A stretch of DNA of 64,000 bases. Source: Oscillospiraceae bacterium. Its GTDB lineage: Bacteria; Bacillota; Clostridia; Oscillospirales; Oscillospiraceae. Below, in pieces: positions 37,789-51,215 of this stretch. The position numbers and the translations under genes are program-made. The notes beneath the pieces were generated by a model. The model saw only the letters and a list, made by a program, of their open reading frames with translations. It did not search any database and was not told the origin of the DNA. Location: assembly GCA_902798545.1 (NCBI GenBank), contig CADBWQ010000010.1, positions 1 to 64,000 of the forward strand. Direction: 5' to 3'. Every line of letters begins with the position of its first letter. The first letter of the stretch is position 1.

Positions 37789-37865
37789 GGAGGGTTAGCT
37801 CAGCTGGTTAGAGCGTCCGCCTCACACGCGGAAGGTCGACGGTTCGAGTCCGCCACTCTCCACCA
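37789..37865 (+). tRNA. tRNA-Val (anticodon CAC)
   Basis: The 77-base gene folds as a standard cloverleaf: acceptor GGAGGGT with ACTCTCC (one G-U pair), D arm with AGCTCAGCTGG, anticodon loop CTCACAC between TCCGC and GCGGA, and T arm GGTTCGAGTCC. The terminal CCA is encoded. CAC reads the valine codon GUG. It stands between the recombinase remnant and the prophage, a typical integration target. Confidence 0.96.
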
Positions 37866-37938: not shown

Positions 37939-38054
37939 CATTCTTCCCACGAGCACCACCCTATGCACGCATCCCGTACAAATAGTACAATATACAAGAA
38001 AATAGTGCGGGAAAAGGAATAAAAGTCCAAATTCAAGCGGGAAAATACTGTTTA

Positions 38055-38063
38055 TGGTATAAT
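38055..38063 (+). promoter_or_regulatory. Extended -10 promoter of the first HTH gene
   Basis: TGGTATAAT is a full extended -10 element 30 bases before the start codon; no good -35 is visible. Confidence 0.55.
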
Positions 38064-38092
38064 TCCGAGCGCAAAAGGAGCGTGCCAACAAT

Positions 38093-38320
38093 ATGATACG
38101 AATTCTATTGTCTACTCGCCTTGGTGAGAGGCGATGGACGCAGGCAAAGCTTTCCCGGGTAACGGGAATCAGACGCGCAACGATCAATGAGATGTATAAT
38201 GAGCTCAGTGACCGTGTGAATCTTGAAGATCTGGATAAAATCTGTGAGGCCCTCGACTGCGATCTCCACGATCTGCTTGTGAGGATCCCCAAAGAAGATC
38301 CAGAGAAGAAGAAAGTCTGA
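38093..38320 (+). CDS. Cro/C1-type helix-turn-helix regulator
   Basis: The 75-residue protein is a single XRE-type DNA-binding domain: TQAKLSRVTGIRRATINEMYN (about 16-36) is the helix-turn-helix, and the C-terminus is basic. It is of the small phage/plasmid regulator class (HTH_26). The start ATG has AAGGAG 13 bases upstream, a loose spacing. It sits alone between the tRNA terminator and its own terminator. It may be the prophage's or a host gene at the border. Confidence 0.75.
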   Translation: MIRILLSTRLGERRWTQAKLSRVTGIRRATINEMYNELSDRVNLEDLDKICEALDCDLHDLLVRIPKEDPEKKKV

Positions 38321-38329
38321 CCAAAGCAA

Positions 38330-38369
38330 AAGAGCGCAGGCAACCTTTATAGGCTGTCTGCGCTTTTTT
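38330..38369 (+). terminator. Terminator after the HTH gene
   Basis: AGCGCAG (38333-38339) and CTGCGCT (38358-38364) form the stem, followed by TTTTT. Confidence 0.85.
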
Positions 38370-38380
38370 GCTTTTCTGGG

Positions 38381-38596
38381 CTATTTGAGCTCAAACGTCT
38401 CACCGTCAGGCATCTGGAATAGAATCTTCCCACCGGCCATCTCTGCAACCTTAATCAGATCTTCGGCTGTCCATCTGGATTCCCGGACCTTCTTGTTCGC
38501 CGCCTGTGGAGAACTGACTTTCAGAATGTCTACAAGATCGGCCTGCTTCTTTCCGCAAGCTCGAAGAGCATGCATCACTGCATCAGAAACTGTCAT
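38381..38596 (-). CDS. Small phage repressor-like HTH protein
   Basis: The 71-residue product reads KKQADLVDILKVSSPQAANK (about 16-35), a helix-turn-helix followed by a short C-terminal beta segment. It is divergent from the early genes across a region with two back-to-back consensus promoters, the position of a lysogeny repressor or Cro-like switch protein. It is too short for an autocleavable CI. GGAGGTG precedes the ATG at 38596. Confidence 0.65.
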   Translation of the reverse strand: MTVSDAVMHALRACGKKQADLVDILKVSSPQAANKKVRESRWTAEDLIKVAEMAGGKILFQMPDGETFELK

Positions 38597-38615
38597 GTCA
38601 ACACCTCCATTGACA

Positions 38616-38644
38616 ATAATAAACCGATACGGATTAAAAGTCAA
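38616..38644 (-). promoter_or_regulatory. Promoter of the divergent repressor-like gene
   Basis: On the minus strand TTGACT (38639-38644), 17 bases, then TATTAT (38616-38621). Its spacer ends in GGTTTAT, the same string that ends the spacer of the opposing promoter. Confidence 0.75.
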
Positions 38645-38687
38645 CCAGAAATTTTTAAAAATAATCCGAAAATATCAATAAAATATA

Positions 38688-38716
38688 TTGACAAATAGTC
38701 CAAAAAGGTTTATAAT
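38688..38716 (+). promoter_or_regulatory. Consensus early promoter of the prophage
   Basis: TTGACA (38688-38693), exactly 17 bases, then TATAAT (38711-38716): a perfect match to the vegetative consensus, starting the rightward early operon. It probably must be repressed in the lysogen; CGGATTA/TAATCCG half-sites lie between it and the leftward promoter. Confidence 0.85.
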
Positions 38717-38742
38717 CATATACAGAAAGGAGGTCAAGAGCG

Positions 38743-38895
38743 GTGAACGAAACCACCAAGAAGGAAGTTGATCAGATGACCAACAAGCAGTTCAAAGCCT
38801 ACCTGGTGATGCTCAAGATGATCGCCGAGAGAACCGAAAGCAACACCGAAATCGTAAAGGCAATCGAAGAAATCATTCAAGCGATAGACGATTAA
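38743..38895 (+). CDS. Small phage early protein, 50 residues
   Basis: A GTG-started frame with AAGGAGG upstream (38727-38733) encodes a charged, all-helical peptide (MNETTKKEVDQMTNKQFK start). It is the first gene after the consensus early promoter. No motif is recognised. Confidence 0.65.
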   Translation: MNETTKKEVDQMTNKQFKAYLVMLKMIAERTESNTEIVKAIEEIIQAIDD

Positions 38896-38929
38896 AAAAG
38901 AATCCCCAGCAAACCTCTCACAGTAAACT

Positions 38930-38970
38930 GGGGTCCGGGAGGGAAACACCGCCCCCTCCCGGGGAACCCC
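38930..38970 (+). promoter_or_regulatory. GC-rich leader hairpin in the early operon
   Basis: GGGGTCCGGGAGGG (38930-38943) pairs with the segment 38954-38970 with one two-base bulge. CCCC at 38967-38970 could instead pair with GGGG at 38981-38984, giving two exclusive folds just before the next ribosome-binding site. There is no T-run. It may stabilise the transcript or control translation. Confidence 0.5.
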
Positions 38971-39010
38971 ATAATAACATGGGGCGGTGGAAAAATCAAG
39001 GAGGCTCACA

Positions 39011-39208
39011 ATGAAAAAAGGACTCGATGCTATATCCGACAGAACCGAGAAGCTCTGGTATGAAGTCGTAAAAAAATACGGCCCCCACACATACACCCTT
39101 GCGGTGAATGGACTTGACGAGGTTGTTCTCTCCAAGCGGTATATGGAAGATATCGCCAAGGGCAACCGGGAAGTACAGAGAGTTCTGAGAGAGCTGCTTA
39201 ATGCATAA
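39011..39208 (+). CDS. Phage protein of unknown function, 65 residues
   Basis: The ATG at 39011 has AAGGAGG seven bases upstream and yields a compact mixed alpha/beta product (LWYEVVKKYGPHTYTLAV...). Not recognised. It lies in the early run of short genes, all on the plus strand with tiny gaps. Confidence 0.65.
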   Translation: MKKGLDAISDRTEKLWYEVVKKYGPHTYTLAVNGLDEVVLSKRYMEDIAKGNREVQRVLRELLNA

Positions 39209-39221
39209 GGAGGAAATGATA

Positions 39222-39647
39222 ATGGCACACAACTGGAGCGATTTTAACAGATTCGAGAGCAAATACATGCCCGACTACGGCGACGGAGACACGATGGCAT
39301 CCCAGGCGGAAACCGCACTGAACAAGCTGGTTTACAAGTGGTTCAACGACGGCGATGTGTACGAAAACCGGTACGGCATGACCGGATGGGCAAATAATAT
39401 CTCCGGGTCTGCGAACTGGCTGGCAAATCACTTTCCGGGAGCGAAGCAGATCCTCGACAGGATCTATGACATCGGGAGCGACGAAGGCAAGTATGAGGAC
39501 ATCCTGTACGACCTCTGCTGTCTGATCCATGACACGCCGAACCTGCTGGACGGCCTGAACAGCATCCCGAGGATCGGAGATGCATACAGCGAAGACGGAC
39601 CGTACAAGTTCGAATACTGTGACGAAGAAGAGGAGGAGGATTACTGA
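39222..39647 (+). CDS. Phage protein of unknown function, 141 residues
   Basis: Acidic product starting MAHNWSDFNRFESKYMPDYG and ending in an EEEEED tract. The second ATG was chosen because AAGGAGG is eight bases upstream; an in-frame ATG two codons earlier is too close to it. The stop overlaps the next start (ATGA). No domain recognised. Confidence 0.65.
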   Translation: MAHNWSDFNRFESKYMPDYGDGDTMASQAETALNKLVYKWFNDGDVYENRYGMTGWANNISGSANWLANHFPGAKQILDRIYDIGSDEGKYEDILYDLCCLIHDTPNLLDGLNSIPRIGDAYSEDGPYKFEYCDEEEEEDY

Positions 39648-40054
39648 TGAGATACACACACTTCGTCCTCACCCAGAACGGGGAGCAGATCGGAACGGCC
39701 GCTGTCATGGAGCAGGCCATCAATGCTGCGAAAGGGTACGCTGAAAAGAACGGTGCGCCAGTCTCCGTGATCGGGCACCGGGACGACGGCAAAGAGAAAG
39801 AAGTCATCTATCACCCGGATGGCCGGATTGAGAAGATCTGGCAGCTTGCGCAGAGCTCCCCGTTCTATCCCCAAGAGGGAGCAACCTACCGAAACGCAGG
39901 CGGTGGGATCTTCCACTGCACAGACGCCAACGGAACCGATGCCTGGATGACCAACATCAAGAGCGGATGGAACTTCAAGGCTCATGGTTGCCGGACTTAC
40001 TTTGATGGATCCATCGAGTGGGACTACTCCACTGACGGACACTTCACTAACTGA
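39647..40054 (+). CDS. Phage protein of unknown function, 135 residues
   Basis: Starts in the stop codon of the previous gene. Aromatic- and glycine-rich (GATYRNAGGGIFHCTDANG...), probably a small beta-rich soluble protein. It is part of the early operon. Not recognised. Confidence 0.65.
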   Translation: MRYTHFVLTQNGEQIGTAAVMEQAINAAKGYAEKNGAPVSVIGHRDDGKEKEVIYHPDGRIEKIWQLAQSSPFYPQEGATYRNAGGGIFHCTDANGTDAWMTNIKSGWNFKAHGCRTYFDGSIEWDYSTDGHFTN

Positions 40055-40070
40055 CAAGGAGGAACAGACC

Positions 40071-40463
40071 ATGCTTCACAACTATGTACCGGCAGAACGC
40101 AAGACCGAGGTCAGCTACGACCTAAGCTTCCTTTACGGCGAGGATCACGGGGGATTCTGTTTTCCCTGTGATGCCACCGGCAAGGTCCTTCCGTTCCGGT
40201 ATGAGGAAGCCGAACGGAACTACGAATACTGCATGGCCCATCCGGAAGAGTTTGAGACCTTCGCCGAGGTCATGCGGTTTGTGAACCGCTACACCGAACC
40301 GGCACACGGAACCTGCAGCTGCGGCGAAGAGGTTGAGCTTTACGATCAGTACTGTGGCGCCTGCCAGTGCCCCAAATGCGGCCAGTGGTACAACCTGTTC
40401 GGGCAGAGCCTGGTCCCGCCTGAGTGCTGGGAACACGATCCGGCAGAGGAAGAATACTGGTGA
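40071..40463 (+). CDS. Phage zinc-ribbon protein, 130 residues
   Basis: The C-terminal half carries CSCGEE and CGACQCPKCGQW (about 84-107), pairs of cysteines that can bind one or two zinc ions. AAGGAGG is eight bases before the ATG at 40071. Likely a nucleic-acid or protein-binding accessory factor. Exact role unknown. Confidence 0.65.
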   Translation: MLHNYVPAERKTEVSYDLSFLYGEDHGGFCFPCDATGKVLPFRYEEAERNYEYCMAHPEEFETFAEVMRFVNRYTEPAHGTCSCGEEVELYDQYCGACQCPKCGQWYNLFGQSLVPPECWEHDPAEEEYW

Positions 40464-40476
40464 GGAGGTGGAAACC

Positions 40477-40743
40477 TTGGAAGAGATCATGAAGCTGATG
40501 GATATCGCCGAGGAGAGGATTCGACATTATCTCCCCGAGGGTTACGAGATGGACGATGTAAGCTGGAGCGACACGGGATTCAGAATCCCGATCTTCTGTG
40601 TCCGGACTCTCGAGCACAGCATGAAGGGCCCAGTGGACAGTTTCCGATTCTTCCTGGACCAGGACGATACTGATGCAGAGAACATAGAGCGGTTCAACAG
40701 CGAGCTCAATAAGTTTTGCAATGGATGGGAGGGCGTAGCATGA
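40477..40743 (+). CDS. Phage protein of unknown function, 88 residues, TTG start
   Basis: The TTG at 40477 is seven bases from GAGGAGGTG and fits better than the ATG four codons later. The product is acidic (GYEMDDVSWSDTGFRIP...). Its stop overlaps the next start (ATGA). Confidence 0.6.
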   Translation: MEEIMKLMDIAEERIRHYLPEGYEMDDVSWSDTGFRIPIFCVRTLEHSMKGPVDSFRFFLDQDDTDAENIERFNSELNKFCNGWEGVA

Positions 40744-40868
40744 AGCTCGACAGAATGTTGGTCATGATGATACGGGAAGCAATTGCGAGGCTGCTTCCCA
40801 CCGGATGGGCAGATGAGATGGCAATCGGCATGGCGGCAGCGTTCGCCGATCAGGCAAGGGGGTTCTGA
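40740..40868 (+). CDS. Phage small protein, 42 residues
   Basis: A short frame coupled by ATGA to the gene before and ending one base before the next start. It is an amphipathic helix (MLVMMIREAIARLLPTGWAD), perhaps membrane-associating. Support comes from tight packing and lack of gaps. Confidence 0.5.
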   Translation: MKLDRMLVMMIREAIARLLPTGWADEMAIGMAAAFADQARGF

Positions 40869-40869
40869 G

Positions 40870-41541
40870 ATGGAGATGACGAAGGCGGAGCGGACCAGGG
40901 CGCTGCGGTATAAAAGACCGGCTCTGGCCACGATGGGATGGGAAGCCATCATGCATGAGCTGGAAGAGATCCAGGAGGCATGCGACGATGTGGCCTACTT
41001 CATAGGGGATGAAGACGAACTGCTGGATGCATTCGACGGGGATGCCGATGAGGCATGGGAGTTCCGGATGGGGTTCTCCAAACTGTCGGCCAAGTGCAAT
41101 CAGCTCGGCGAGGCCATGTACGAATGGAACGATCGGGACGACTTCGACGACTGTACGGTGGCCCTGGTCGGGAACCGCTACGATCTGGTGGGCTACGACG
41201 GATATGAGGAAGATTACTACAGCCTGTGCCGGTATGAGGAAGAGCTGGCCGTCTCGGAGGCGGGAAAGAGGCTGATGAGGCAGACCAAGGCCGAGATGAT
41301 CGCCAGCATCGGGCAGGCACTCGGAACCATGATGGCCTTCCTCGATCTCCGGCAGAGCTACGACTACCTGAAGGCCACGATGGACATCCTCCGGGACGAG
41401 AACCACAGCATCCTCCAGACGGTGAAGCAGATCGAGGACGCCTATGACAAAGCCCAGGAGCATCCGGAGAGCTGGAGCCATGACAGCAGATACTTCGACC
41501 AGCTGACGGAAACGCTGCCACCCAGAATGTGGGTAGAATGA
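40870..41541 (+). CDS. Phage protein of unknown function, 223 residues
   Basis: A highly acidic, mostly helical protein beginning MEMTKAERTRALRYKRPALA. AGGGGG lies upstream of the ATG. A C-terminal stretch of heptad-like helices (about 130-200) suggests a coiled coil. Not recognised. Confidence 0.65.
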   Translation: MEMTKAERTRALRYKRPALATMGWEAIMHELEEIQEACDDVAYFIGDEDELLDAFDGDADEAWEFRMGFSKLSAKCNQLGEAMYEWNDRDDFDDCTVALVGNRYDLVGYDGYEEDYYSLCRYEEELAVSEAGKRLMRQTKAEMIASIGQALGTMMAFLDLRQSYDYLKATMDILRDENHSILQTVKQIEDAYDKAQEHPESWSHDSRYFDQLTETLPPRMWVE

Positions 41542-41557
41542 GAAAGGAGACAGCAAA

Positions 41558-41779
41558 ATGACAGTTTACGATTTCCTGTACGTGTTCAACGATGATTATG
41601 AGGTCGTCCGGATCTACGACACCCGGACAGAGGAAGAGGTCTTTGCCGGAACGATCCGGGACGCCATGTACTGCGACTATGAGGGCTATGAAGTTGACGG
41701 CGTGGATCTGGACCGGGACGGGATGATCATCACGATCGAGACCGATGAGGAGGATACCGACGAGGAGGATGAAGAATGA
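41558..41779 (+). CDS. Very acidic small phage protein, 73 residues
   Basis: AAAGGAG precedes the ATG. The product has a small beta-rich body and ends in a run of Glu/Asp/Thr (TDEEDTDEEDEE). Such DNA-mimic-like charge is seen in some phage inhibitors, but nothing here proves that. Its stop overlaps the next start. Confidence 0.65.
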   Translation: MTVYDFLYVFNDDYEVVRIYDTRTEEEVFAGTIRDAMYCDYEGYEVDGVDLDRDGMIITIETDEEDTDEEDEE

Positions 41780-42135
41780 GCAGAGATTGGACGAAGGAAG
41801 AGATTCAGGCCGCTTCTGATGCCATGCAGGCAATGGGGCACATGAGCTATGAGACCTTCTGCAAAGAGCTCGATGCAACACGCAAAATCCAGCGGTTTGC
41901 CCCTCTGCAGCGGAAATACCACTGGCCGTGCCCACGCTGCGGACGATGGGTGATGAACAGCGATCCGGCACGGAACGCACTCAGCCGGAGGGCACAGATC
42001 TACATCTGCGACAGTTGCGGGACATCTGAGGCAATTGAGGATTTCACCGGCAAGGTCACACCATTGGCCTCCTGGGACATAGCCAAGAAAGCAGATTGGC
42101 CGTTCGGGAACGATCCGGAGGACGCCAATGGATGA
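41776..42135 (+). CDS. Phage zinc-ribbon protein, 119 residues
   Basis: CPRCGRW (about 52-58) and CDSCGTSEA (about 78-86) form one zinc ribbon. The rest is basic and helical. It is coupled by ATGA overlap to the acidic gene before it. Function unknown; a DNA- or RNA-binding role is plausible. Confidence 0.65.
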   Translation: MSRDWTKEEIQAASDAMQAMGHMSYETFCKELDATRKIQRFAPLQRKYHWPCPRCGRWVMNSDPARNALSRRAQIYICDSCGTSEAIEDFTGKVTPLASWDIAKKADWPFGNDPEDANG

Positions 42136-42370
42136 CAGCCTTCGGGAGCAGCATCCTCTCGGCAGGTTCGAGATCATTTGCGAAACGTATCTCTCTGGCA
42201 CAGAGAAAACGAGAGATATCATCATGGAGAACATTCCCACAGAAGACAGAGATGCGTTTCTGGCTGGTGTCGGTCTGTATCACTTGTTAACAGATGAAGC
42301 CTTCTTCAGATCGGTCTGTGAAGCTTTGGCAGAACAGTTCTGGAATGATGCGCACAGTTCATCTCCGTAA
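42128..42370 (+). CDS. Phage protein of unknown function, 80 residues
   Basis: Overlaps the previous gene by eight bases. It is a helical acidic product (FLAGVGLYHLLTDEAFFRSV...). It is the last gene before the 224-base leader of the PAPS-reductase/ParB cassette. Confidence 0.6.
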   Translation: MDDSLREQHPLGRFEIICETYLSGTEKTRDIIMENIPTEDRDAFLAGVGLYHLLTDEAFFRSVCEALAEQFWNDAHSSSP

Positions 42371-42472
42371 TAACAGGTCCTCCAGCGTTGCGCAAAGTGT
42401 TACAACGTGTTGAAACGTTCGCTTGAATTAGAAGACTCTGTGTGATAGAACTACAATCGGAATTCGTATCAA

Positions 42473-42507
42473 GGCACTGCAGCTCACCACTGCGGTGCCA
42501 TTTTCAT
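42473..42507 (+). terminator. Terminator-like hairpin in the cassette leader
   Basis: GGCACTGCAG (42473-42482) pairs with CTGCGGTGCC (42490-42499, one G-U pair) and is followed by ATTTTCAT. It may end the early transcript or be part of a conditional attenuator. Confidence 0.6.
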
Positions 42508-42511
42508 TTCC

Positions 42512-42594
42512 GGAAGGAGGGACAGACCAGAACACACGGCAGCTCCTTTGAGTATCGCCGCCACCTGGCGGACACATCAAAGGAGGGTGTCACG
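42512..42594 (+). promoter_or_regulatory. Shine-Dalgarno-sequestering leader RNA with a competing pairing
   Basis: CTCCTTTGA (42543-42551) pairs perfectly with TCAAAGGAG (42577-42585), which contains the ribosome-binding site of the next gene. Inside lies a second stem, CCGCC/GGCGG (42558-42562 with 42567-42571). The same CTCCTT can instead pair with AAGGAG at 42514-42519, freeing the site. Two exclusive folds around a start codon are the layout of a translational riboswitch or other switch. No known riboswitch class is recognised. Confidence 0.55.
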
Positions 42595-43590
42595 ATGACA
42601 CTGAAAGAAAAGTTCAAGAGCAATCCCCAGCTGTACTATGCACTGAGTATCGCCGCCACCTGGGCGGGGATCGGCTCCCTGATGAATGGCGTGACCATGA
42701 CGCAGACCTACGGCGTGATCCCGTCTCTGATCTGGGTGCTTGGAAACACGGTCGCATGCATTCTATTCGGCGCTGTGGCTCTCAAAATTCCAAAGGTCAG
42801 AGAGGTATTCGGATCCAGAATCATGAAATGGATCTGTGGCGTCATGTGCGTCTTCCAGGCATGGCTTTCCATGAACGGCATGCAGACCGTATTCACGGAC
42901 ACATCCCTCGGCGCGGATTTCGGCATGTATGTGGCCTATGCTCTGGCCGTGATCTTCCTGCTGATCCTTCTGAAGTTCGGCATGATCCGGAACGTCCTGA
43001 CAGACGGCTTCGGCTGGATCATCGTCTACCTGATGGCAGTCGGCGTCACAATCGCCGCGGCTATCCACTCGGCCGGGCATTTCAACAACATTCCTCTGGT
43101 CCAGGACGCCGAAAGTATGAAAATCGGCCTCTGGAAAGCCTTCCTTTTGCTTCCAGGGCCTTTCACCTATCCCTACTTCTTTGAGATCCTGAATTACAAC
43201 GAGAAGAACGAGGACGGGACACAGCGGGTCAATGTGAGACGTGCCTTCACGATGGGCGGCGTCTTTTTCGGCATTTACATGGCCATCGTCTTCCCGCTGG
43301 CCTGGACGCAGTTCTCTCCGGCACTGAATATCGTCAAGGCGATCCTGATCACGATCATCGGGACGTCAACTCTGTCTTCCTCCATGTACAGCATCTACAT
43401 TGCCTTCGGGAAGAAGGTCGGCCTTGTGATCAATGCCGCTCTGATCGCCGGATGGAGCATCCTGATACCGCTTGGCGTCATGGGCATGTGGACGCTGATG
43501 GCATCGGTCAGAATCTACTTCGTCGGTGCCGGGATCCTGTTTGCGCTCTGCTGGAACGCTTATGAAAAGCGGAAGGCGGTGGCAGCATGA
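42595..43590 (+). CDS. Phage-encoded ten-helix membrane protein, transporter-like
   Basis: The 331-residue product has about ten hydrophobic helices. TM1 has a glycine-broken stretch TWAGIGSLMNG (about 21-31), and a later helix carries GPFTYPYFFEILN (about 185-197); such breaks in helices 1 and 6 are typical of LeuT-fold transporters. That is inference, as no family is certain. AAAGGAGGG is nine bases before the ATG and is held in a hairpin. Its stop overlaps the first PAPS-reductase-like gene (ATGA). A transporter in an early phage operon is unusual. Confidence 0.7.
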   Translation: MTLKEKFKSNPQLYYALSIAATWAGIGSLMNGVTMTQTYGVIPSLIWVLGNTVACILFGAVALKIPKVREVFGSRIMKWICGVMCVFQAWLSMNGMQTVFTDTSLGADFGMYVAYALAVIFLLILLKFGMIRNVLTDGFGWIIVYLMAVGVTIAAAIHSAGHFNNIPLVQDAESMKIGLWKAFLLLPGPFTYPYFFEILNYNEKNEDGTQRVNVRRAFTMGGVFFGIYMAIVFPLAWTQFSPALNIVKAILITIIGTSTLSSSMYSIYIAFGKKVGLVINAALIAGWSILIPLGVMGMWTLMASVRIYFVGAGILFALCWNAYEKRKAVAA

Positions 43591-44372
43591 AACAGGTTCT
43601 CGGAAGAAAACAGACCAGTAAAAATGAGGACTGGATTTATGCATGGGAGCATATCGAGGAGCTGATCTCGTTGGCAGAGGTCAAATCCTACGCAGATGCA
43701 TCCTTGAAAGAGATTTGGCGCACCGTGGCCGGAAAGAACGCCGCCTATGCCTACAGCGGAGGGAAAGACAGTATCGTTCTTGCCGATCTATGTGAAAAGG
43801 CCGGGATAAGCACCGGTTATTTTGCCTACTGTGATTTGGATTATCCGGCATTCGTTGCCTGGGTACAGGAGCACAAGCCATCAGGTGTCCAGATGATGCA
43901 TACCGGATATGGTCTGGACTGGCTGTATCATCATCAGCGACTGATCTTCGCCGAGGGACAACTCGGACAGCGCTGGCATCAGATCAGCCAGCGAGGCCCG
44001 TTCACGAAGATGTTCTTCGACAACCATCTCGATATGCTGATTGTCGGGCACAGGACTATAGATGGCAATTTCTGTGGGCCAGACGGTTTTATCCGGAAGC
44101 AGACCGGAGAAGTCAGGTACTCTCCCCTCAGGAACTGGCCGCACGAGGCACTGCTTGGCTATATTCATTACAACAGTCTCTCGCTACCACCGATCTATCA
44201 GTGGAAAGACGGATTTGTCCAGGGAACACATGCATGGCCAGAACGTGAATTCTGCAGTGACGATATCATGAAGGGATATCGCGAGGTCTATGAGATCGAT
44301 CCTTCTATTGTCCTGAAGGCAGCGGAAAAGTTGCCGAGCGCCAGACACTTCCTTGAGGAGGTGGGCGTATGA
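43587..44372 (+). CDS. PAPS-reductase-family ATP pyrophosphatase, first copy
   Basis: The 261-residue protein has the P-loop-like motif SGGKDS at 57-62, marking the N-type ATP pyrophosphatase family that includes PAPS reductase and DndC. A later RYSPLRNWPHEALLGYI (about 173-189) is the usual C-terminal lid. These enzymes adenylate a substrate, often for sulfur transfer. It is coupled to the ParB-like gene by ATGA. It lacks a clear redox cysteine motif of true PAPS reductases. Confidence 0.85.
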   Translation: MKQVLGRKQTSKNEDWIYAWEHIEELISLAEVKSYADASLKEIWRTVAGKNAAYAYSGGKDSIVLADLCEKAGISTGYFAYCDLDYPAFVAWVQEHKPSGVQMMHTGYGLDWLYHHQRLIFAEGQLGQRWHQISQRGPFTKMFFDNHLDMLIVGHRTIDGNFCGPDGFIRKQTGEVRYSPLRNWPHEALLGYIHYNSLSLPPIYQWKDGFVQGTHAWPEREFCSDDIMKGYREVYEIDPSIVLKAAEKLPSARHFLEEVGV

Positions 44373-45055
44373 ATATCACGATGGTTCCCATTGTCGACCT
44401 GAAGCCCAATCCAAAGAATGTCAGGCTACACTCGGCCAAGCAGTTAGAGGAATACCAGAGATCCGTTCAAAAGTTCGGACAGACCAAGGCAATCGTGATC
44501 GATGAGACGAACACAATCCTGATCGGCAACGGGCTGTATGAGGCCATGAAGGCACTGGGCTATACCGAAGCGGCCTGCTTCATCAAGTCCGGCATGTCGG
44601 AGCACGACAAGCTGAAGATGATGATGGCCGATAACAAGATCTATTCCCTGGGCGTGGACAATTTGGAGGCCATCGAGGATATCATATCCGAGCTCGGCAC
44701 CATGAAGGACTTCGACATTCCCGGCTATGACGCTGATCTGCTGGAAACGCTCACCTTTGAGCCGATAGAGGCGGATGACTTCATGACAGGATATGGGATT
44801 CTCGATGACGACCAGAAGGCTGGAATGGAGCGCGCAGCGGACCGATATCAGCAGGAAGAAGCGGATTTTGTAGCTTCTGCTGAAAATTTGTCCCCAATTA
44901 GCCCAACTGGGACGCTGGAAACGCCGGGAAGCGGTTTTCCAGGTCAGGGCAATATTGGAGCAGGTTTTCCAGAAAATGCTCAGGAAACGGCTGGAAATGC
45001 GTTGCAACGGCGACTGATCGTCTGCCCAAAGTGTGGTGAAAAGATATGGCTGTAA
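44369..45055 (+). CDS. ParB/Srx-like domain protein with C-terminal zinc ribbon, first copy
   Basis: The 228-residue protein has an N-terminal ParB-like fold (VPIVDLKPNPKNVRLHS at 6-22; IGNGLYEAMKALG near 52-64, where typical ParB has GxRR) and a C-terminal CPKCGEKIW zinc-binding end, with only one CxxC visible. A low-complexity linker lies between. ParB-like domains in phages act as CTP- or ATP-using switches or nucleases. It overlaps the next gene by ten bases. Confidence 0.8.
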   Translation: MNITMVPIVDLKPNPKNVRLHSAKQLEEYQRSVQKFGQTKAIVIDETNTILIGNGLYEAMKALGYTEAACFIKSGMSEHDKLKMMMADNKIYSLGVDNLEAIEDIISELGTMKDFDIPGYDADLLETLTFEPIEADDFMTGYGILDDDQKAGMERAADRYQQEEADFVASAENLSPISPTGTLETPGSGFPGQGNIGAGFPENAQETAGNALQRRLIVCPKCGEKIWL

Positions 45056-46209
45056 AGCGAATCGAGGGGACGATCGATGTCGTCACCGCGGCGCAGCAGC
45101 GCATTCTGAACACCTTTTCAAATGGTGTCCCTGTATATCTCTCCTTTTCAGCTGGAAAAGACAGCCTGTGTCTGGCGTATCTGGTCTATTCTCTCATTCA
45201 GGCCGGAAAGATAAGTGCCAAGCAACTGATCGTGCTCTTCATTGACGAAGAGGCCATCTACGACAGTATGTATCAGATGGCAGCACGTTGGAGGAAACGC
45301 TTTCTCTCCATCGGAGCTGAGTTCCGGTGGTACTGCCTTCCGGTACGTCAGTCCAGCATTTTACACTATCTGCAGAGCACGGAGTCATGGATCACCTGGG
45401 AGCCAGGAAAAGAGGACTGCTGGGTCAGGAAACCGCCTCCATTTGCGATTACCAGAAGCCCATATCTCAACTATCCGGGAGAGATGAACTATCAGGAATT
45501 CTGCAAGACGATCACGAAAGACGGTATCCAGATCGTTGGTCTACGCGGCTCTGAATCTCTGCAGCGAGCAAAGCTTCTTGCAAACATCTCGCTCGGGAAA
45601 GGAGCAATAACCGGCACCAACTGCCAGTATCCGATCTATGACTGGCGGGACAGCGATGTGTGGCTCTTCATCAAGGATCACAACCTGGACTTCCCGGACG
45701 CATACATCCATCTTTATGAAGTCGGAGTGTCGAAACGGCAGCTCCGGCTTTGTAATTTCTTCGGATCCGAGGGAATAGCCGGCTTGCGGTACATTGCCGA
45801 AACTGATCCTGCACTCTGGCAGCAGGTTGAGAAGCGAGAGCCGAACGCCTATCTGACACTTCTCTACTGGGATTCGGAGATGTTCAAGCGGAGCACCAGA
45901 AAGCGCAGAGAGCTGGAAGGAGACGAACCGCTCAAGGACTACAAAGCCGAGTGTAAGAAGATGCTCTTCACCGAATCTGACAAGTACTTCGGGATTCAGA
46001 GCATGAAAAAGGTCCACACCGCCTATCGGGCATTCTATATTCGGAACAGCGCAGTTATGACCAACGACAACTTCAGAGCCATGCACGATGCGATCATTGC
46101 CGGAGATCCGAAGCTCCGGTCGCTCAGAGCGCTGTACACGACGGTCTACAAACAGTATGCGGACTTCAGCCGTGAAACCTCGCCACAGAAAGGTGGTGAG
46201 AAAACATGA
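45046..46209 (+). CDS. PAPS-reductase-family protein, IbrA-like, second copy
   Basis: The 387-residue protein has SAGKDS at 35-40 and the longer C-terminal part of IbrA-type sulfurtransferase-like proteins, with GLRGSESLQRAK (about 164-175) and YPIYDWRDSDVWLFI. IbrA/IbrB were named as prophage-borne regulators in E. coli; their chemistry is not settled. The start overlaps the previous gene, and its stop overlaps the second ParB-like gene, keeping the pair in fixed ratio. Confidence 0.85.
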   Translation: MAVKRIEGTIDVVTAAQQRILNTFSNGVPVYLSFSAGKDSLCLAYLVYSLIQAGKISAKQLIVLFIDEEAIYDSMYQMAARWRKRFLSIGAEFRWYCLPVRQSSILHYLQSTESWITWEPGKEDCWVRKPPPFAITRSPYLNYPGEMNYQEFCKTITKDGIQIVGLRGSESLQRAKLLANISLGKGAITGTNCQYPIYDWRDSDVWLFIKDHNLDFPDAYIHLYEVGVSKRQLRLCNFFGSEGIAGLRYIAETDPALWQQVEKREPNAYLTLLYWDSEMFKRSTRKRRELEGDEPLKDYKAECKKMLFTESDKYFGIQSMKKVHTAYRAFYIRNSAVMTNDNFRAMHDAIIAGDPKLRSLRALYTTVYKQYADFSRETSPQKGGEKT

Positions 46210-46730
46210 CTGAGGTAAACGTATTTGGCCCACTCTCTTCCCTTCAGTGGGTGGATCGGGAAAAACTGCATGCCAACGACTACAACCCGAACAAGGTCAG
46301 CGAGGAAAATCTCCAGCTCCTGGTTCAGTCCATCCTCACCAACGGGTGGACGCTGCCGATCGTGGTCCGGCCGGATTACACCATCATCGATGGTTTCCAC
46401 CGCTGGACGGTATCAGGGCGTGAGCCGCTTCTCTCGAAGCTCGGCGGGAAAGTCCCTGTCGTGATCGTGAACCACGACAACGAAGCGGATGACATCTTCG
46501 GCACCATCACACACAACCGTGCTCGTGGCACTCACCTGCTCGAGCCCATGAAGGCGATTGTCAAGCGCCTGATTGATGAAGGCAAGAGTGTTCCGGAGAT
46601 CTCAAAGCAGCTTGGCATGAAGCCGGAGGAGATCTTCCGTCTCTCTGACTTCTCCCGTGATGAGTTTCTGGCCATGATGACCGATGGCGTAAATGGTTAC
46701 TCCAAGGCCGCGATCTATAAAAACGTGTGA
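46206..46730 (+). CDS. ParB-like domain protein, IbrB-like, second copy
   Basis: The 174-residue protein has a complete small ParB-like domain: HANDYNPNKVSEENL (about 22-36), IIDGFHRWTVSG (about 60-71), NRARGTHLLEPM. A short helix-turn-helix-like tail (SVPEISKQLGMKPEEIFRLS) follows. It is translationally coupled to the IbrA-like gene. Its motif retains the HR pair that the first copy lacks. Confidence 0.85.
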   Translation: MTEVNVFGPLSSLQWVDREKLHANDYNPNKVSEENLQLLVQSILTNGWTLPIVVRPDYTIIDGFHRWTVSGREPLLSKLGGKVPVVIVNHDNEADDIFGTITHNRARGTHLLEPMKAIVKRLIDEGKSVPEISKQLGMKPEEIFRLSDFSRDEFLAMMTDGVNGYSKAAIYKNV

Positions 46731-46740
46731 GGTAAGAATC

Positions 46741-46920
46741 ATGACAGGCATAGAAAAGATTCCGGTCTACATTCGCATAGAGAACGGGAAGACAGTCTGT
46801 GTCTGTCATGCTGCTAAAAAGGGATGCCCGAATAAAGACAATTGCGCTCGGAATCTCGTGACTCGTGATCTGTATCGAGGTTGGCAGCAGACGATGAAGC
46901 GGAACCGCTACGGTCAGTGA
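46741..46920 (+). CDS. Small cysteine-rich phage protein, 59 residues
   Basis: GAGGTAAG lies before the ATG at 46741. The product has VCVCHAAKKGCPNKDNCARN (about 19-38), four to five cysteines that could bind zinc or an Fe-S cluster. It directly follows the PAPS-reductase/ParB cassette and may belong to it. Confidence 0.6.
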   Translation: MTGIEKIPVYIRIENGKTVCVCHAAKKGCPNKDNCARNLVTRDLYRGWQQTMKRNRYGQ

Positions 46921-46921
46921 C

Positions 46922-47281
46922 ATGAGGAGCGGTTATCATCCAGCCATCGAAAGAGAAGCTCAGAAAGAGACTCTCAAAAAACAGGGCTTCTACCATAAAA
47001 CAGCATGGCGCAGAATACGGCAGCAGGCGCTCCATCGTGATCACTATCTCTGTCAGGAGTGCCTGCTCCACCAAAAAATAACACCTGCCACAGAAGTACA
47101 CCACATCGTTCCGCTTGAGGATGACCCATCGCTCGGCCTCGAGCTGTCCAACCTCCGGTCGCTGTGCTGGTCATGTCACGAAGACACGAAGCATAAGCAA
47201 CAACATAATAAACACATGGTACCCGGCGTGCGAGTCTTGAAAATCGCAGACGGAGCTGAGCTCGATTCGACGGATCAGTGA
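46922..47281 (+). CDS. HNH endonuclease next to terminase
   Basis: The 119-residue protein has the zinc pairs CQEC (44-47) and CWSC (82-85) and the HNH core HHIVPLED (60-67), Asn77 and His86. In HK97-like phages an HNH protein encoded beside the terminase helps it cleave cos ends. The ribosome-binding site is weak, so it may depend on coupling to the gene ending two bases before. Confidence 0.88.
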   Translation: MRSGYHPAIEREAQKETLKKQGFYHKTAWRRIRQQALHRDHYLCQECLLHQKITPATEVHHIVPLEDDPSLGLELSNLRSLCWSCHEDTKHKQQHNKHMVPGVRVLKIADGAELDSTDQ

Positions 47282-47466
47282 CGCTCCCTGCCGGCGTCTC
47301 GATCTCCGCGACCGACCACGCCCCTACCCTCGGAGTTAAACGCGATCCCCATCGTAACCGCGAGGCCTCGCCAGTTCGTACCGCGACCACATTTTCGAAA
47401 CGTTTTTTTCAAGGGCCAAAAAGCCCAGAGTCACAGCAAAAATGCTCACAGAAAGGAGAAAATGCC
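47282..47466 (+). other. Non-coding segment before the small terminase gene, candidate cos site
   Basis: This 185-base gap is GC-rich at first and carries several copies of CGCGA, four in about 85 bases, two of them as CCGCGACC. Such short repeats beside terS are typical terminase-binding (cos) regions. The downstream part holds only a short hairpin and the terS ribosome-binding site. No gene is seen. Confidence 0.4.
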
Positions 47467-48108
47467 GTGGAAATTGAAGAAAATGCCCAAATCGAAGAAA
47501 AGATGCCTACTGTAGAGCAGACTGCCGAAGTGGCAAGTGTCTTGCCTGAGTGGCGAATATTCACGGAAAGACTTCGTTCTGCGAGAGAAAAGGCAGGATT
47601 GACGATTCAGGCTCTCGCAGAAATGCTTTCGGTAGACATGAGCACTGTGTCCCGATGGGAGTCTGGCACACGTGAACCTGGATTGAAAACTGTTGTTGAC
47701 ATAGCGGAAAAGCTTGATGTCCCATCTGACTACCTCCTCGGGCTATCTGACTCAGACGGTTCCTCCCAGAATCTCAGCATAAACGACAGGGCGAAAGCAA
47801 TCCTGGAGCGTGTCCGGGATAAGAGTGACGAACAGGCACTCTTCTTTGAGACAACCTTCACCCGATACATTGAGCAGATTTCCCTCCTGAAAAAGCTGAA
47901 AAAGGCTATTGACGATAACGGAGTGCTCGTGACGAAGGTGAATGTCAAAGGTGACGAGAACAAGGTCTCTAATCCAGCGATTAAGGATTACGTCTCTGTG
48001 AGCGCACAGGCCAATGACACCGGGAAACTGCTGATTCGCTTCGTGCAGGATCCTTTGGAAGGTGATTCCGAAAAGGACGAGCTTGAACTGTTCCTGTCCG
48101 GGAGGTGA
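47467..48108 (+). CDS. Terminase small subunit with N-terminal repressor-type HTH
   Basis: Of 213 residues, about 30-85 are a Cro/C1 helix-turn-helix (TIQALAEMLSVDMSTVSRWE), and the C-terminal 90 are a P27-type small terminase segment (ISLLKKLKKAIDDNG, then VKGDENKVSNPAIKDY). TerS normally has its own winged-helix DNA reader; an XRE unit of cellular repressor type in front is unusual. It recognises viral DNA for packaging. The GTG at 47467 has AAGGAG eight bases upstream. The long upstream reading crosses the non-coding gap. Confidence 0.8.
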   Translation: MEIEENAQIEEKMPTVEQTAEVASVLPEWRIFTERLRSAREKAGLTIQALAEMLSVDMSTVSRWESGTREPGLKTVVDIAEKLDVPSDYLLGLSDSDGSSQNLSINDRAKAILERVRDKSDEQALFFETTFTRYIEQISLLKKLKKAIDDNGVLVTKVNVKGDENKVSNPAIKDYVSVSAQANDTGKLLIRFVQDPLEGDSEKDELELFLSGR

Positions 48109-48116
48109 GTCTCACC

Positions 48117-49820
48117 GTGATACCGAGTACCGTGAGGTCATCGCTGGCGTTCCGGTATGCGGTGGACGTGACATCGGGAAAGATCGTCTCCGGAAAGAAG
48201 CGCATACAGGCCTGCCAGCGGTTCATTGATGAACTGGAACAGTCCTATTCGGATCCAAACTACCCTTGGGCATACGATCTGAGCCGTGCAAATCAGCCGA
48301 TTGAGTTCATAGAGCGGTTCCTGATCCCGACCAAAGGCGCATACTCGAAGACAGAACTCCTCCCATGGCAGCATTTTGTGGAATCGAATATGTACGGATG
48401 GATCTCCCGGAAGACAGGGTATCGCCGTTTCCGTGAATCGCTAATCATCGTAGGTCAGGGCAATGGCAAGTCTACCATGATTGCCGGTAACGCGGCCTAC
48501 GGCCTGATCGCCGACAAGGAGCGCGGTGCTGAAATCTATGCTCTGTCGAACGCCAGGGAGCAGGCAAGAATCGTTTTTGGTGAGTGCGCAGCGCAGATTT
48601 CGGGATCTCCGGCACTCCTAAAGCACGTTCAGGTGACTCAGGGTGGTGTCTACTTCCACAATTCCAAATTTGAGCCGCTCGCATCCGACAGCAGAAACCT
48701 CGACGGCCGTAATGTCCACATGGCTGTCTTCGATGAGATCCACGAATTCCGAGATTACAAACTGATCAACGTCATCAAGGGCAAGACCAAGAAGCGCAAG
48801 CAGCCCATGATCATCTATATCACCACCCTGGGCACCGTCATAGACGGCCCACTGATGGATTTTTACGTCCTCGGCAGTCAGATTTTGGCCGGGGACGCTG
48901 CTATTTCCAAACGTGCGGCAGACCGCATGTTTGTCTACATTGACGAGATCGACGAAGATGACGATCCGGATAATCCGGAATGCTGGATAAAGGCAAACCC
49001 GTCTTTGGGCAAGCTCCTCGATATCGAAGACCTGAAAGATGAATGGGAGCGAGTGAAGACCATTCCGGCAGAGCGGTCGAACTTCATCAATAAGCAGCTG
49101 AACGTGTTTACCGCGGTCGATGAGCTGTCGTTTCTTGATGTGAAGACCATACGGAAAAATAATCGGACGTTCCCGGAGAAAGACCTGATCGGGCGGCTTT
49201 GCTATGGCGGGTTCGACCTTTCATCCACTGAAGACTTTACCGCAGCGTGTCTGGAATTCCCGCTCGGTGATAATGGCTTCTTCCTTCTGGAACACTCGTG
49301 GACCACGGAGAAGAAGAGAAAGGCCGATGCAGAGAAGCTGGACTGGGAATTTCTCATTGAAAATGGCTGGCTGACCGTCTGTAATGGCGAATATGTAGAC
49401 TACAACCTCGTCGTGAAATGGTTTTTGGAGCAGCGCGAGAAGTACCGGATCGAGACAATCGGCTATGACCCAGCAAAGGCATTCATGATGATCCAGACTA
49501 TGCAGCAGATGGGATTCATCCTGAACGATGTTCGGCAAGGCGAGATCACACTCACCGGACCGCTGGACGATTTGAAGGAACGTTTTCTCGACGGGAAGAT
49601 CATTCATAATAACAATCCTATGTTCAATTGGTATTTGGGCAACGTCAAACTCACAAAAAGGTCTGTAAACGGCACATATTTGCCTACGAGACAGTCAATT
49701 TACAGAAAAATAGACGGTTTTGCGGCCTTTTTGGACGCTCATACAGAGTATCTCAGGAAGCATCCGCTTCATATTCCACCGGATAAGAAGCTCACAACCG
49801 TCATCAAATTGGAGAGGTGA
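48117..49820 (+). CDS. terL: Terminase large subunit
   Basis: The 567-residue packaging motor has an ATPase domain with Walker A GQGNGKST (about 113-120) and Walker B MAVFDEIHEF, and a C-terminal RNase-H-like nuclease (FDLSSTEDFTA; YDPAKAFMMI). It pumps DNA into the prohead and cuts it. The GTG at 48117 is seven bases from GGAGGTGAG; a GTG at 48105 overlaps that site. Terminase_1 family. Confidence 0.93.
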   Translation: MIPSTVRSSLAFRYAVDVTSGKIVSGKKRIQACQRFIDELEQSYSDPNYPWAYDLSRANQPIEFIERFLIPTKGAYSKTELLPWQHFVESNMYGWISRKTGYRRFRESLIIVGQGNGKSTMIAGNAAYGLIADKERGAEIYALSNAREQARIVFGECAAQISGSPALLKHVQVTQGGVYFHNSKFEPLASDSRNLDGRNVHMAVFDEIHEFRDYKLINVIKGKTKKRKQPMIIYITTLGTVIDGPLMDFYVLGSQILAGDAAISKRAADRMFVYIDEIDEDDDPDNPECWIKANPSLGKLLDIEDLKDEWERVKTIPAERSNFINKQLNVFTAVDELSFLDVKTIRKNNRTFPEKDLIGRLCYGGFDLSSTEDFTAACLEFPLGDNGFFLLEHSWTTEKKRKADAEKLDWEFLIENGWLTVCNGEYVDYNLVVKWFLEQREKYRIETIGYDPAKAFMMIQTMQQMGFILNDVRQGEITLTGPLDDLKERFLDGKIIHNNNPMFNWYLGNVKLTKRSVNGTYLPTRQSIYRKIDGFAAFLDAHTEYLRKHPLHIPPDKKLTTVIKLER

Positions 49821-49823
49821 AGC

Positions 49824-51215
49824 ATGAGCATTTTCACTTTTTTCCGGGATCGCCGGAGACAACGGATCATCACAAAATATCTGAACAGCCGAGATGTTCA
49901 AATCATCGGCAGGCCGTCCAGCACATGGATACCGCACTGGCTCCGTGGTGACTACACGCTCCGGAACAGCGAGCTGATCTTTGCCGCCGTTTCTCGGATC
50001 TCCAATGCCATTTCCGCTATGCCTGTGCAGCTGTATAAAGGCTCAAAACCGGTCTATAACGACCTGAATGACCTTATTTCGGCTAATCCGAACTTCCAGA
50101 TGACATCTGCACAGTTTTTTAAGACGATGGAGGCATGCCGCAGTACAGCCGGTGACTGCTATGCACTGAAGGTGTTTGCACCCGGCGACACTCTCCCACA
50201 TTTGGAAATACTGGATCCAACAAAAGTTCGCCCTCTGATCGACAGATCATCCGGGGAGCTTTGGTGGAGGGTACAGCCGGATGAAGGACAGGAATTTCAG
50301 ATTCATGATTACTACATGATTCACGTTCCGTTCCTCTCAACGAACGGAATAGGTGGCATTTCCCCTGTTTCTGTGCTGTTTGATACGCTGAAATACTCGG
50401 ATAACATCCAGGAATTCAACTCAAAGCAGCTCGAACAGGGCGTCAATTCCGCTATTGTTCTCGAAGCTCCGGCAAACCTCGGGCAAGATCAGAAGGCGGC
50501 TGTCGTCGAGGACTTCATGGCGACATACCGTGAGACCTCCGGCAACATTCTCCTTTTAGAATCCGGTGTGACAGCCAAGACGCTGAACCTATCTCCTGTC
50601 GATTCCAAATTATTTGAGGTTGAAAAGATCACCAGAAGCAAGGTCGCAATGGTCTATAACCTGCCTCCGCACCTTCTTGGCGACTACTCAGACACATCTT
50701 TCAGCTCCCAGGAGCAGCAGATGCTTGAATTTCTAATGCTGACGATGCTCCCGATCGTCACAGCATATGAGCACGAGCTGAACAGGAAGCTTCTCACCAG
50801 AGCTCAGCGAAAGAATGGTTTTCACTTCAAGTTCGACATGGACTCCATTCTGAGAGCGGACGCTGCCACGCAGGCCGAGGTTCATTACAAGGCCGTGCGC
50901 TCCGGCTGGATGACACCGGACGAGATCAGGTATGTCCGGAATATGCCTGCACTGCCTGATGGAATTGGCAAGCACGCACTGGTGTCTCAGGATCTGGCCA
51001 CGCTGGATTACACGGTGAAAGACAAGCCTAAAGTGCTCATGGCTGCACTCAATCAGAAGGAGGAAAAGCCAGATGGAGGAGATGGAAGCTCTGATTCTGG
51101 AGGCAAAGAGTCTGGGAATCCCAAACCCGACGCTCTACCGGCTGCTTCCGGAAAGCAAGCGTATCGAAGCCCTGAAAAAGGACATCGAGAAAGCGAAACA
51201 GTCCACACCCGCTGA
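49824..51215 (+). CDS. HK97-type portal protein
   Basis: The 463-residue protein is the dodecameric DNA-entry ring of the head. Family marks are AVSRISNAISAMPVQLY (about 55-71), the central MIHVPFLSTNGIGGISPV and YNLPPHLLGDYSDTSFSS. The last 50 residues are low-complexity (GGDGSSDSGGKESGNPKPD), the product of a region that also codes in another frame. It starts four bases after terL with GAGGTG upstream. Confidence 0.92.
   Translation: MSIFTFFRDRRRQRIITKYLNSRDVQIIGRPSSTWIPHWLRGDYTLRNSELIFAAVSRISNAISAMPVQLYKGSKPVYNDLNDLISANPNFQMTSAQFFKTMEACRSTAGDCYALKVFAPGDTLPHLEILDPTKVRPLIDRSSGELWWRVQPDEGQEFQIHDYYMIHVPFLSTNGIGGISPVSVLFDTLKYSDNIQEFNSKQLEQGVNSAIVLEAPANLGQDQKAAVVEDFMATYRETSGNILLLESGVTAKTLNLSPVDSKLFEVEKITRSKVAMVYNLPPHLLGDYSDTSFSSQEQQMLEFLMLTMLPIVTAYEHELNRKLLTRAQRKNGFHFKFDMDSILRADAATQAEVHYKAVRSGWMTPDEIRYVRNMPALPDGIGKHALVSQDLATLDYTVKDKPKVLMAALNQKEEKPDGGDGSSDSGGKESGNPKPDALPAASGKQAYRSPEKGHRESETVHTR

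Follow-up and report, generated by a model that had tools for sequence, protein, structure and literature searches.

The window analyzed here is a stretch of 64,000 nucleotides, positions 1-64000 of contig CADBWQ010000010.1, from a 3.03 Mb, 50-contig genome (91.8% complete) of an Oscillospiraceae bacterium (assembly GCA_902798545.1). It includes a phage-borne cassette in which a short membrane protein, two PP-loop enzymes of the PAPS-reductase family (PAPS-A and PAPSb) and two ParB-type proteins (ParBa and ParBb) are encoded behind a leader. The five genes are chained by overlaps of 4, 4, 10 and 4 bases between positions 42595 and 46730 and are followed by a gene for a cysteine-rich protein, an arrangement that the original prediction had described and that was borne out. 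The features, with window positions, are the following:

42505-42594, plus strand: leader, recognized by its folding compared with shuffled sequences and by a layout common to relatives
42549-42568, plus strand: echo, 20 nucleotides within the leader hairpin that exactly duplicate a segment of the transporter gene (repeat search)
42595-43590, plus strand: short membrane protein of 331 amino acids, distantly related to SSF symporters (hhalign against the long symporters of other cassettes)
42644-42663, plus strand: gene-internal copy of the leader echo, within the codons for A-L-S-I-A-A-T-W (repeat search)
43587-44372, plus strand: PAPS-A, PP-loop (SGGKDS) enzyme, an optional member (Pfam PAPS_reduct, E 1.1e-7)
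44369-45055, plus strand: ParBa, ParB/Srx-type protein with a GNG motif and a CPxC C-terminal end (PHROG 620, 6.6e-39; alignment)
45046-46209, plus strand: PAPSb, IbrA-like PP-loop (SAGKDS) enzyme with a C-terminal extension and no invariant cysteine (PHROG 2302, 2.2e-79; alignment)
46206-46730, plus strand: ParBb, IbrB-like ParB protein that has the motifs DGFHR and NRARGxH, plus a helix-turn-helix (HTH) region with a weak match (PHROG 2159, 1e-69; alignment)
46741-46920, plus strand: cysteine-rich protein of 59 amino acids (open reading frame; adjoins ParBb in relatives)

The transporter start at 42595 is an in-frame ATG within the listed open reading frame 42442-43590.

Related loci were collected by seed (30 with PAPSb, 10 with PAPS-A, 41 with the membrane protein and 28 with the terminase large subunit, TerL), and a genome set was made of the best 80 of 160 relatives found with the ParBb seed. 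Identical copies, identified by a 300-base key, accounted for five of the 80 genome loci (L114, L138, L149, L162 and L163); the 75 left included 58 complete loci, defined by a PAPSb start that lies 2.7 kb or more from the beginning of the locus. PAPSb was present in all 80 ParBb-seeded loci, and 70 of them had the exact order ParBa-PAPSb-ParBb. The trio was accompanied by a second ParBa or PAPSb match in three of the 80, and seven were without ParBa, most of them ending at a contig edge (L138 does not). The viral loci with PAPSb and ParBb, a set of 76 in which duplicates were kept, comprised 68 plain trios, five with PAPSb-ParBb alone, two trios with an extra match and one with the order PAPSb-ParBb-ParBa (L090). 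PAPS-A was found in 39 of the 58 complete genome loci and was missing from 19. The conserved unit is the trio ParBa-PAPSb-ParBb, and PAPS-A is an optional insert. The original prediction had seen a PAPS-reductase plus ParB pair that occurs twice and has diverged; because PAPS-A is missing from those 19 complete loci, the apparent double pair is a single trio with an optional gene. An origin of the cassette by duplication of a pair was rejected on the basis of PHROG families, BLAST and profile comparisons. The two ParB proteins have different best PHROG matches (620 for ParBa and 2159 for ParBb) and belong to separate families, and the best BLAST match between PAPS-A and PAPSb has an E value of 0.42; profile comparison (probability 98, E 1.1e-14, 21% identity) makes these two enzymes distant relatives.

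The order of the cassette genes recurs over many contigs, hence it is not due to chance. The possibility that the genes would prove unlinked in related phages was not borne out, as the order stays linked in the relatives. The 59-amino-acid cysteine-rich gene recurs behind ParBb as well, in 33 adjacent pairs (overlapping loci kept). Hosts named in the locus records include Oscillospiraceae, Lachnospiraceae, Selenomonadaceae, Treponema and metagenome-assembled genomes called Bacteroidales, and matches in phage records numbered 215 for PAPSb and 224 for ParBb, with the leading hosts shared. Individual loci depart from the usual layout. At L138:4805-6525, a short-transporter match runs directly into PAPSb-ParBb with ParBa missing, which is either a real loss or an assembly error, and L065:7108-8673 has an extra stretch of about 0.8 kb between PAPS-A and ParBa.

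The SGGKDS motif of the second cassette protein (PAPS-A) and the SAGKDS motif of the fourth (PAPSb), both part of the original prediction, are present, and both proteins are over the Pfam PAPS_reduct cut-off (E 1.1e-7 and 1.9e-8, respectively), which assigns them to a domain family only. CysH, the PAPS reductase, is marked by an ECGLH-type C-terminal motif with the catalytic cysteine. This motif is missing from 28/28 PAPSb and 17/17 PAPS-A aligned rows, some of which are partial. An alignment of 28 PAPSb proteins, which takes in homologues from E. coli, Mycobacterium, Arthrobacter, Bacillus, Flavobacterium and Streptococcus phages, keeps the PP-loop and has 14 invariant residues, none of them cysteine; no invariant cysteine was found in the 17 PAPS-A rows either, the best cysteine columns reaching 21/28 and 14/17. 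When the PAPSb profile was compared with solved structures, the matches were sulfate adenylyltransferase CysD (9e-9), FAD synthase (5.4e-8) and CysH (1.5e-5), so that its nearest solved relatives are adenylyl-transferring enzymes; TilS and TtuA, tRNA-modifying members of the PP-loop superfamily, were weak matches. The host assembly has no other PF01507 match, and all 14 control genomes were positive. The original prediction had included sulfur modification among its proposals. Sulfur chemistry is disfavoured because there is no invariant cysteine and no CysH motif in the aligned rows, no match to DndA, DndD or DndE among the scanned cassette proteins, and no other PF01507 match in the host. 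The database labelling of the cassette as sulfur metabolism is probably wrong.

The two ParB-like assignments of the original prediction were upheld through different routes. ParBb matches Pfam ParB_N (4.9e-7), its alignment keeps the DG-HR and NRA-G-H elements, and its profile matches chromosomal ParB and Noc; an HTH_23 match (E 0.076) is under the cut-off. ParBa is assigned by its PHROG match, its ParB_N match being weak (0.004) and under the cut-off. Its alignment has the GNG motif in most rows, and the CPxC end is common to 15 of 17 ParBa proteins. The earlier idea that ParBa had lost the HR motif from a ParBb-like copy therefore does not hold, as ParBa is a member of another ParB family. 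A ParABS partition system would have a ParA ATPase next to ParB, and no ParA match was found among the ten proteins scanned.

A transporter stands upstream of the trio in 58/58 complete, distinct genome loci, and it is of three kinds: 29 are long SSF/DUR3-like symporters, 28 are of the short form found in the window and one is of the ABC type. Loci without the 331-amino-acid protein hold a protein of about 450-470 amino acids in the same place, and the distance from the symporter end to the next cassette frame is 60 bases or less in 56 of 57 symporter loci, L143 being the exception. The long form is an SSF symporter by Pfam (E 2e-14 to 4.6e-24, with 5/5 tested proteins over the cut-off), and its nearest solved relative is DUR3 (E 1.8e-24), followed by the choline transporter SLC5A7. 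The shorter window protein has no Pfam match over the cut-off, SSF included, and a PDB search with it gave no useful match; it is tied to the long form by profile comparison only (hhalign probability 78, E 1.9e-5, 203 columns). In the ABC-type locus (L174:2558-4257), a BPD permease is accompanied by a binding protein of the NMT1/SsuA type, and the stop codon of the binding-protein gene directly adjoins the start of ParBa. A transporter was visible in eight and not in nine of the 17 genome loci with less context, and in 16/17 loci of the PAPSb-seeded viral set, L028 being without one. In one further locus, L114:2678-4222, the long symporter is in pieces, owing to a true break or to an assembly error. 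These relatives strengthened the earlier ideas of a phage-borne, linked system and of a transporter of its own. Because the type of transporter has been repeatedly exchanged at a single slot, the arrangement points to a cassette that would work on an imported substrate. A urea-, amine- or choline-like compound is a candidate suggested by the SSF/DUR3 match. Cellular neighbours of the long symporter were considered as a guide to the substrate, and this approach was dropped since the only three matches at E<=1e-20 among 197 genomes of the order all lie in cassettes, next to the trio.

Downstream of the five overlapping genes, the cysteine-rich gene is followed on the same strand by the HNH gene, the HTH/TerS-like gene, TerL and portal:

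46922-47281, plus strand: HNH endonuclease of the packaging module (Pfam HNH, 5.6e-12)
47278-48108, plus strand: HTH protein with weak terminase-small-subunit similarity (Pfam, PHROG)
48105-49820, plus strand: terminase large subunit, TerL (PHROG 9, 2.3e-155)

The product of 47278-48108 combines a Cro/C1-type HTH and the weak terminase-small-subunit similarity on a single chain. PAPSb and ParBb were found within about 5 kb of TerL in five of nine annotated phage records (Taranis, Laroye, Bernardo, PJN03 and FCL-2). In Hendrix the terminase is preceded by three ParB genes, PAPSb being outside the fetched stretch, and in Bacillus phage 031MP004 PAPSb/ParBb lie at the end of the record, with the terminase outside the stretch examined. 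Among six TerL relatives with more than 5 kb of upstream sequence, the trio was present in four and missing in L103 and L105. A weak DUF1492-like protein precedes the leader in 26/61 loci (for example, L017:2934-3380), and a gene annotated as a RinA-like activator precedes the leader position in FP_Taranis (L074 gp34); a gene of this kind standing before the leader suggests that the cassette may begin a late operon.

The cassette is part of a prophage, since tail, reverse transcriptase, endolysin, Sak4-like and integrase genes are found further along the same contig, outside the window. The reverse transcriptase (PHROG 1423; L189:7984-9144, contig 70984-72144) lies behind an open reading frame of 2163 amino acids and may represent a diversity-generating retroelement. 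The integrase (PHROG 95; L190:10781-12355) also matched DNA invertase families, is probably a serine recombinase and may be close to the right end of the prophage. A further ParB-type protein (PHROG 6218) is encoded on the minus strand of the same prophage at L189:15588-16991, and a tRNA-Val at window positions 37789-37865, to the left of the phage genes, is a possible left attachment site.

The ribosome-binding site lies within TCAAAGGAG (42577-42585) of the leader, a segment able to pair with CTCCTTTGA (42543-42551), and a GC hairpin is enclosed between the two. The minimum free energy of the window leader is -32.9, compared with -23.8 +/- 3.0 for shuffled sequences (z -3.0; 0/200 shuffles as low). 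The layout CTCCTTT...AAAGGAGG was found in 12/12 rows of a hand-picked alignment that includes the window. Inside the hairpin lies the echo, in which 20 leader bases are repeated exactly 95 bases downstream in the transporter gene, with 0 such repeats expected by chance. Echoes were assessed in the window and in 69 of 116 deduplicated transporter loci (35 short and 34 long); 47 loci were excluded because a start codon with a ribosome site or a motif anchor could not be placed, or because the upstream sequence was too short. With a threshold score of 14, which was chosen after the data had been seen, an echo was detected in 21/36 short-transporter loci (window included), and 0/200 shuffles were as high; in 10 of these 21 loci the cassette's own gene beat every other gene. 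The controls gave 1/431 for other gene starts, 0 against the reverse complement and 0 against gene positions 200, 400 and 600. Long-symporter loci had an echo in 4/34 cases with a gene window of 200 bases and in 2/34 with 130 bases, and a weak echo (2/300 shuffles) was detected in L090, where PAPSb comes first and the true start is uncertain. No echo was found in 15/36 short loci, in 30/34 long loci or in L191-L193. Exact or near-exact leader copies of early codons of the locus's own transporter gene were noted in L005, L011, L016, L053, L055, L061, L066, L145 and others, often following that gene's own letters.

A second type of leader, a hairpin with CTCCTT in the loop, was seen in relatives. 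The ordered elements GGAGG, CTCC and CGCC occur in leaders of either type in 25/36 short and 12/34 long loci, whereas the numbers expected on the basis of shuffled sequences were 0.17 and 0.07. In 22 leaders of the second type, from loci with both kinds of transporter, two-sided changes were found in 7/8 pairs of the hairpin and 93.2% of the cells were paired. The covariation score was 0.776, compared with 0.280 for shuffled alignments (0/500) and at most 0.208 when the structure was slid; two cruder counts were unremarkable (both-side changes, 154/500 shuffles as high; further pair types, 49/500). These figures come from the alignment behind a model, R1; its loci were picked by eye for their shared layout, and the structure was predicted on the same alignment. 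A search with R1 covered the window, seven phage stretches and 65 of the 80 genome loci (905 kb). At E<=0.0059 it gave 29 matches, every one of them in a genome locus. The 18 that were not in the training set were all at a transporter start; two of them were near-copies (L149, 99%; L124, 92%), and the other 16 were 59-78% identical to the nearest training leader. Three weaker matches (E 0.019-0.099) included one away from a transporter start (L138:12172). R1 does not match the window leader, which is of the shorter type, and the covariation results belong to the second type only. The leader may also be a general one for late operons: no R1 match at E<=1 was found in the cassette-free TerL relatives searched, of which only L103 and L105 have more than 5 kb upstream, and many cassette loci (L084, L085, L090 and L106 among others) were also unmatched. 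In 200 genomes of the family R1 matched three places. One precedes a short transporter, another a long transporter, and the third lies directly upstream of an IbrA-like PAPSb at a site where a transporter is missing (L192/L194). It is thus to the operon, and not to the transporter, that the second-type leader belongs.

A known riboswitch was rejected as an explanation of the leader because no Rfam family was over its gathering score there (0 in window positions 38000-50000; two tRNAs only in nine loci). The leader may be a translational switch, in which the 3′ arm of the hairpin would have two alternative partners, the copy in the leader and the copy in the gene, and translation of the first gene of the operon would be gated by a structure that hides the ribosome site. 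The rival explanation for the repeat between leader and gene is a DNA operator that is present twice.

The closest known systems include the IbrA/IbrB pair, found in E. coli islands and many phages, a kinship that the original prediction had recognized and that holds, as homologues in Taranis and PhiR5_2 are annotated with these names. The likeness consists of adjacent homologous PP-loop and ParB genes, which overlap by four bases in the window. The PhiR5_2 copies, from an E. coli phage, are 27% and 36% identical to PAPSb and ParBb, respectively. Unlike IbrA/IbrB, the window cassette adds ParBa, a transporter, often PAPS-A, a structured leader and a location before the terminase. In Faecalibacterium phage FP_Taranis, transporter, ParB, IbrA and IbrB genes occur in the same order and at the same site before TerS-TerL, with a transporter that is 46% identical; it differs in being without PAPS-A, and its record annotates single genes and names no system. 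The open-licence literature searched held no description of a transporter-ParB-PP-loop cassette or of its leader, and nothing was found there on the biochemistry of IbrA/IbrB. Another point of comparison is CmoA/CmoX/CmoY hypermodification. A phage is reported to attach glycine to a base by means of an AMP-forming ligase, and ParBc genes accompany the system (PMC12783734). The likeness, an AMP-forming ligase together with ParBc genes in phage neighbourhoods, is an analogy and not membership. The PAPSb profile matches CysD and FAD synthase rather than asparagine synthetase. The ten scanned proteins gave no match to CmoA or CmoX except that the HTH/TerS-like protein had a chance-level CmoA match (E 0.084); the remainder of the prophage was scanned in part.

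We tentatively propose, as the likeliest of the readings considered, that this cassette belongs to a late operon and serves the chemical modification of nucleic acid with an imported group, the most probable target being the DNA of the phage itself at about the time of packaging. The transporter would import a small polar solute, and PAPSb, with PAPS-A where present, might use ATP and its PP-loop to adenylate either this solute or a base, no sulfur relay through cysteines being needed. DNA and nucleotide would be bound by the ParB/Srx proteins, which would steer the reaction, and the adjacent terminase would package the product. In favour of this proposal are the recurrent order of the trio, the transporter of three kinds upstream in all complete genome loci, the closeness of the long symporter to DUR3 and its restriction to cassettes at E<=1e-20, the CysD and FAD synthase matches of PAPSb, the lack of an invariant cysteine, the shared leading hosts of PAPSb and ParBb, and their position near TerL in five of nine phage records. 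A wider proposal, which we consider rather doubtful, is that the cassette represents a widespread, undescribed import-activate-attach system, in which the transporter feeds a PP-loop/ParB complex that lacks catalytic cysteines, the imported group is placed onto the DNA of the virus, and the process is timed or sensed by leader RNA of a new class that in part mimics the first gene of the operon.

Several observations weigh against modification of the phage DNA. We know of no trio-bearing phage with modified DNA, and the literature searched yielded none; the cassette showed no enzyme for the installation of a chemical handle. PAPSb-ParBb occurs without ParBa in L138 and without a transporter in L028, L090 (from the TerL set) and L194. 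The PAPS-A profile meets CysH first (1.9e-6), which lends adenylation weaker support in that protein, and the likeness to DUR3 leaves the substrate unfixed. CHPC877 and PhiR5_2 carry PAPSb-ParBb with no terminase within the stretch examined, and the cassette is accessory because the trio is missing from two of the six TerL relatives described above.

The same enzymes might target free nucleotides, tRNA or a signalling molecule, in counter-defence or host takeover, instead of phage DNA, which we regard as unlikely. ParB/Srx proteins reportedly act as NTPases and nucleotidases as well (PMC10853773, PMC5512222). TilS and TtuA show that the PP-loop superfamily includes tRNA-modifying enzymes, and PAPSb-ParBb is found outside packaging operons too. 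DNA is nonetheless favoured as the target because of the two ParB-type proteins and of the site beside the terminase in five of the nine phage records. It is less likely still that the proteins act as a gene regulator and switch phage or host genes on, as implied by the name "co-activator of prophage gene expression". The homologues are annotated as IbrA/IbrB, which reportedly activate eib; nonetheless, a regulator leaves the PP-loop enzyme and the three kinds of upstream transporter unexplained, and modification of DNA might likewise alter expression.

Sulfur modification of DNA, similar to phosphorothioation, appears quite improbable. DndC and BrxP are PP-loop proteins and weak matches of PAPSb (E 0.017 and 1.7e-4 for DndC), and Dnd systems are reported to include the ParB-superfamily protein DndB and Type-4 BREX to use a protein of the PAPS-reductase family. 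The cassette resembles DndB/DndC in associating a ParB-superfamily protein with a PP-loop protein. However, DndC is described as having a cysteine dyad and an Fe-S centre, and the cassette PP-loop proteins have no conserved cysteine; furthermore, DndA, DndD and DndE had no match in the cassette proteins (eight scanned with PADLOC and ten with NCBIfam). It is hardly credible that either enzyme works as a genuine PAPS reductase (cysH) and that its gene serves sulfur assimilation as an auxiliary metabolic gene. The Pfam and PHROG names and the first match of PAPS-A speak for it, and rumen virome and Clostridium prophage papers class such genes as sulfur or host metabolism. Against this, the ECGLH-type motif occurs in 0/45 aligned rows, the 91.8% complete host assembly lacks another PF01507 match while 14/14 controls have one, and the genes are tied to ParB genes in the loci examined.

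The linkage of a transporter to PP-loop/ParB enzymes would offer IbrA/IbrB a testable substrate route. A leader that combines a covarying structure, seen in one type, with a copy that tracks its own gene would represent a new sort of regulatory RNA in phages. The rumen virome study names iscS and cysH as the auxiliary metabolic genes present on most contigs; if the cysH copies of gut viruses are mostly parts of ParB-linked cassettes such as this one, the ecological reading of these genes as sulfur auxiliary metabolic genes needs revising.

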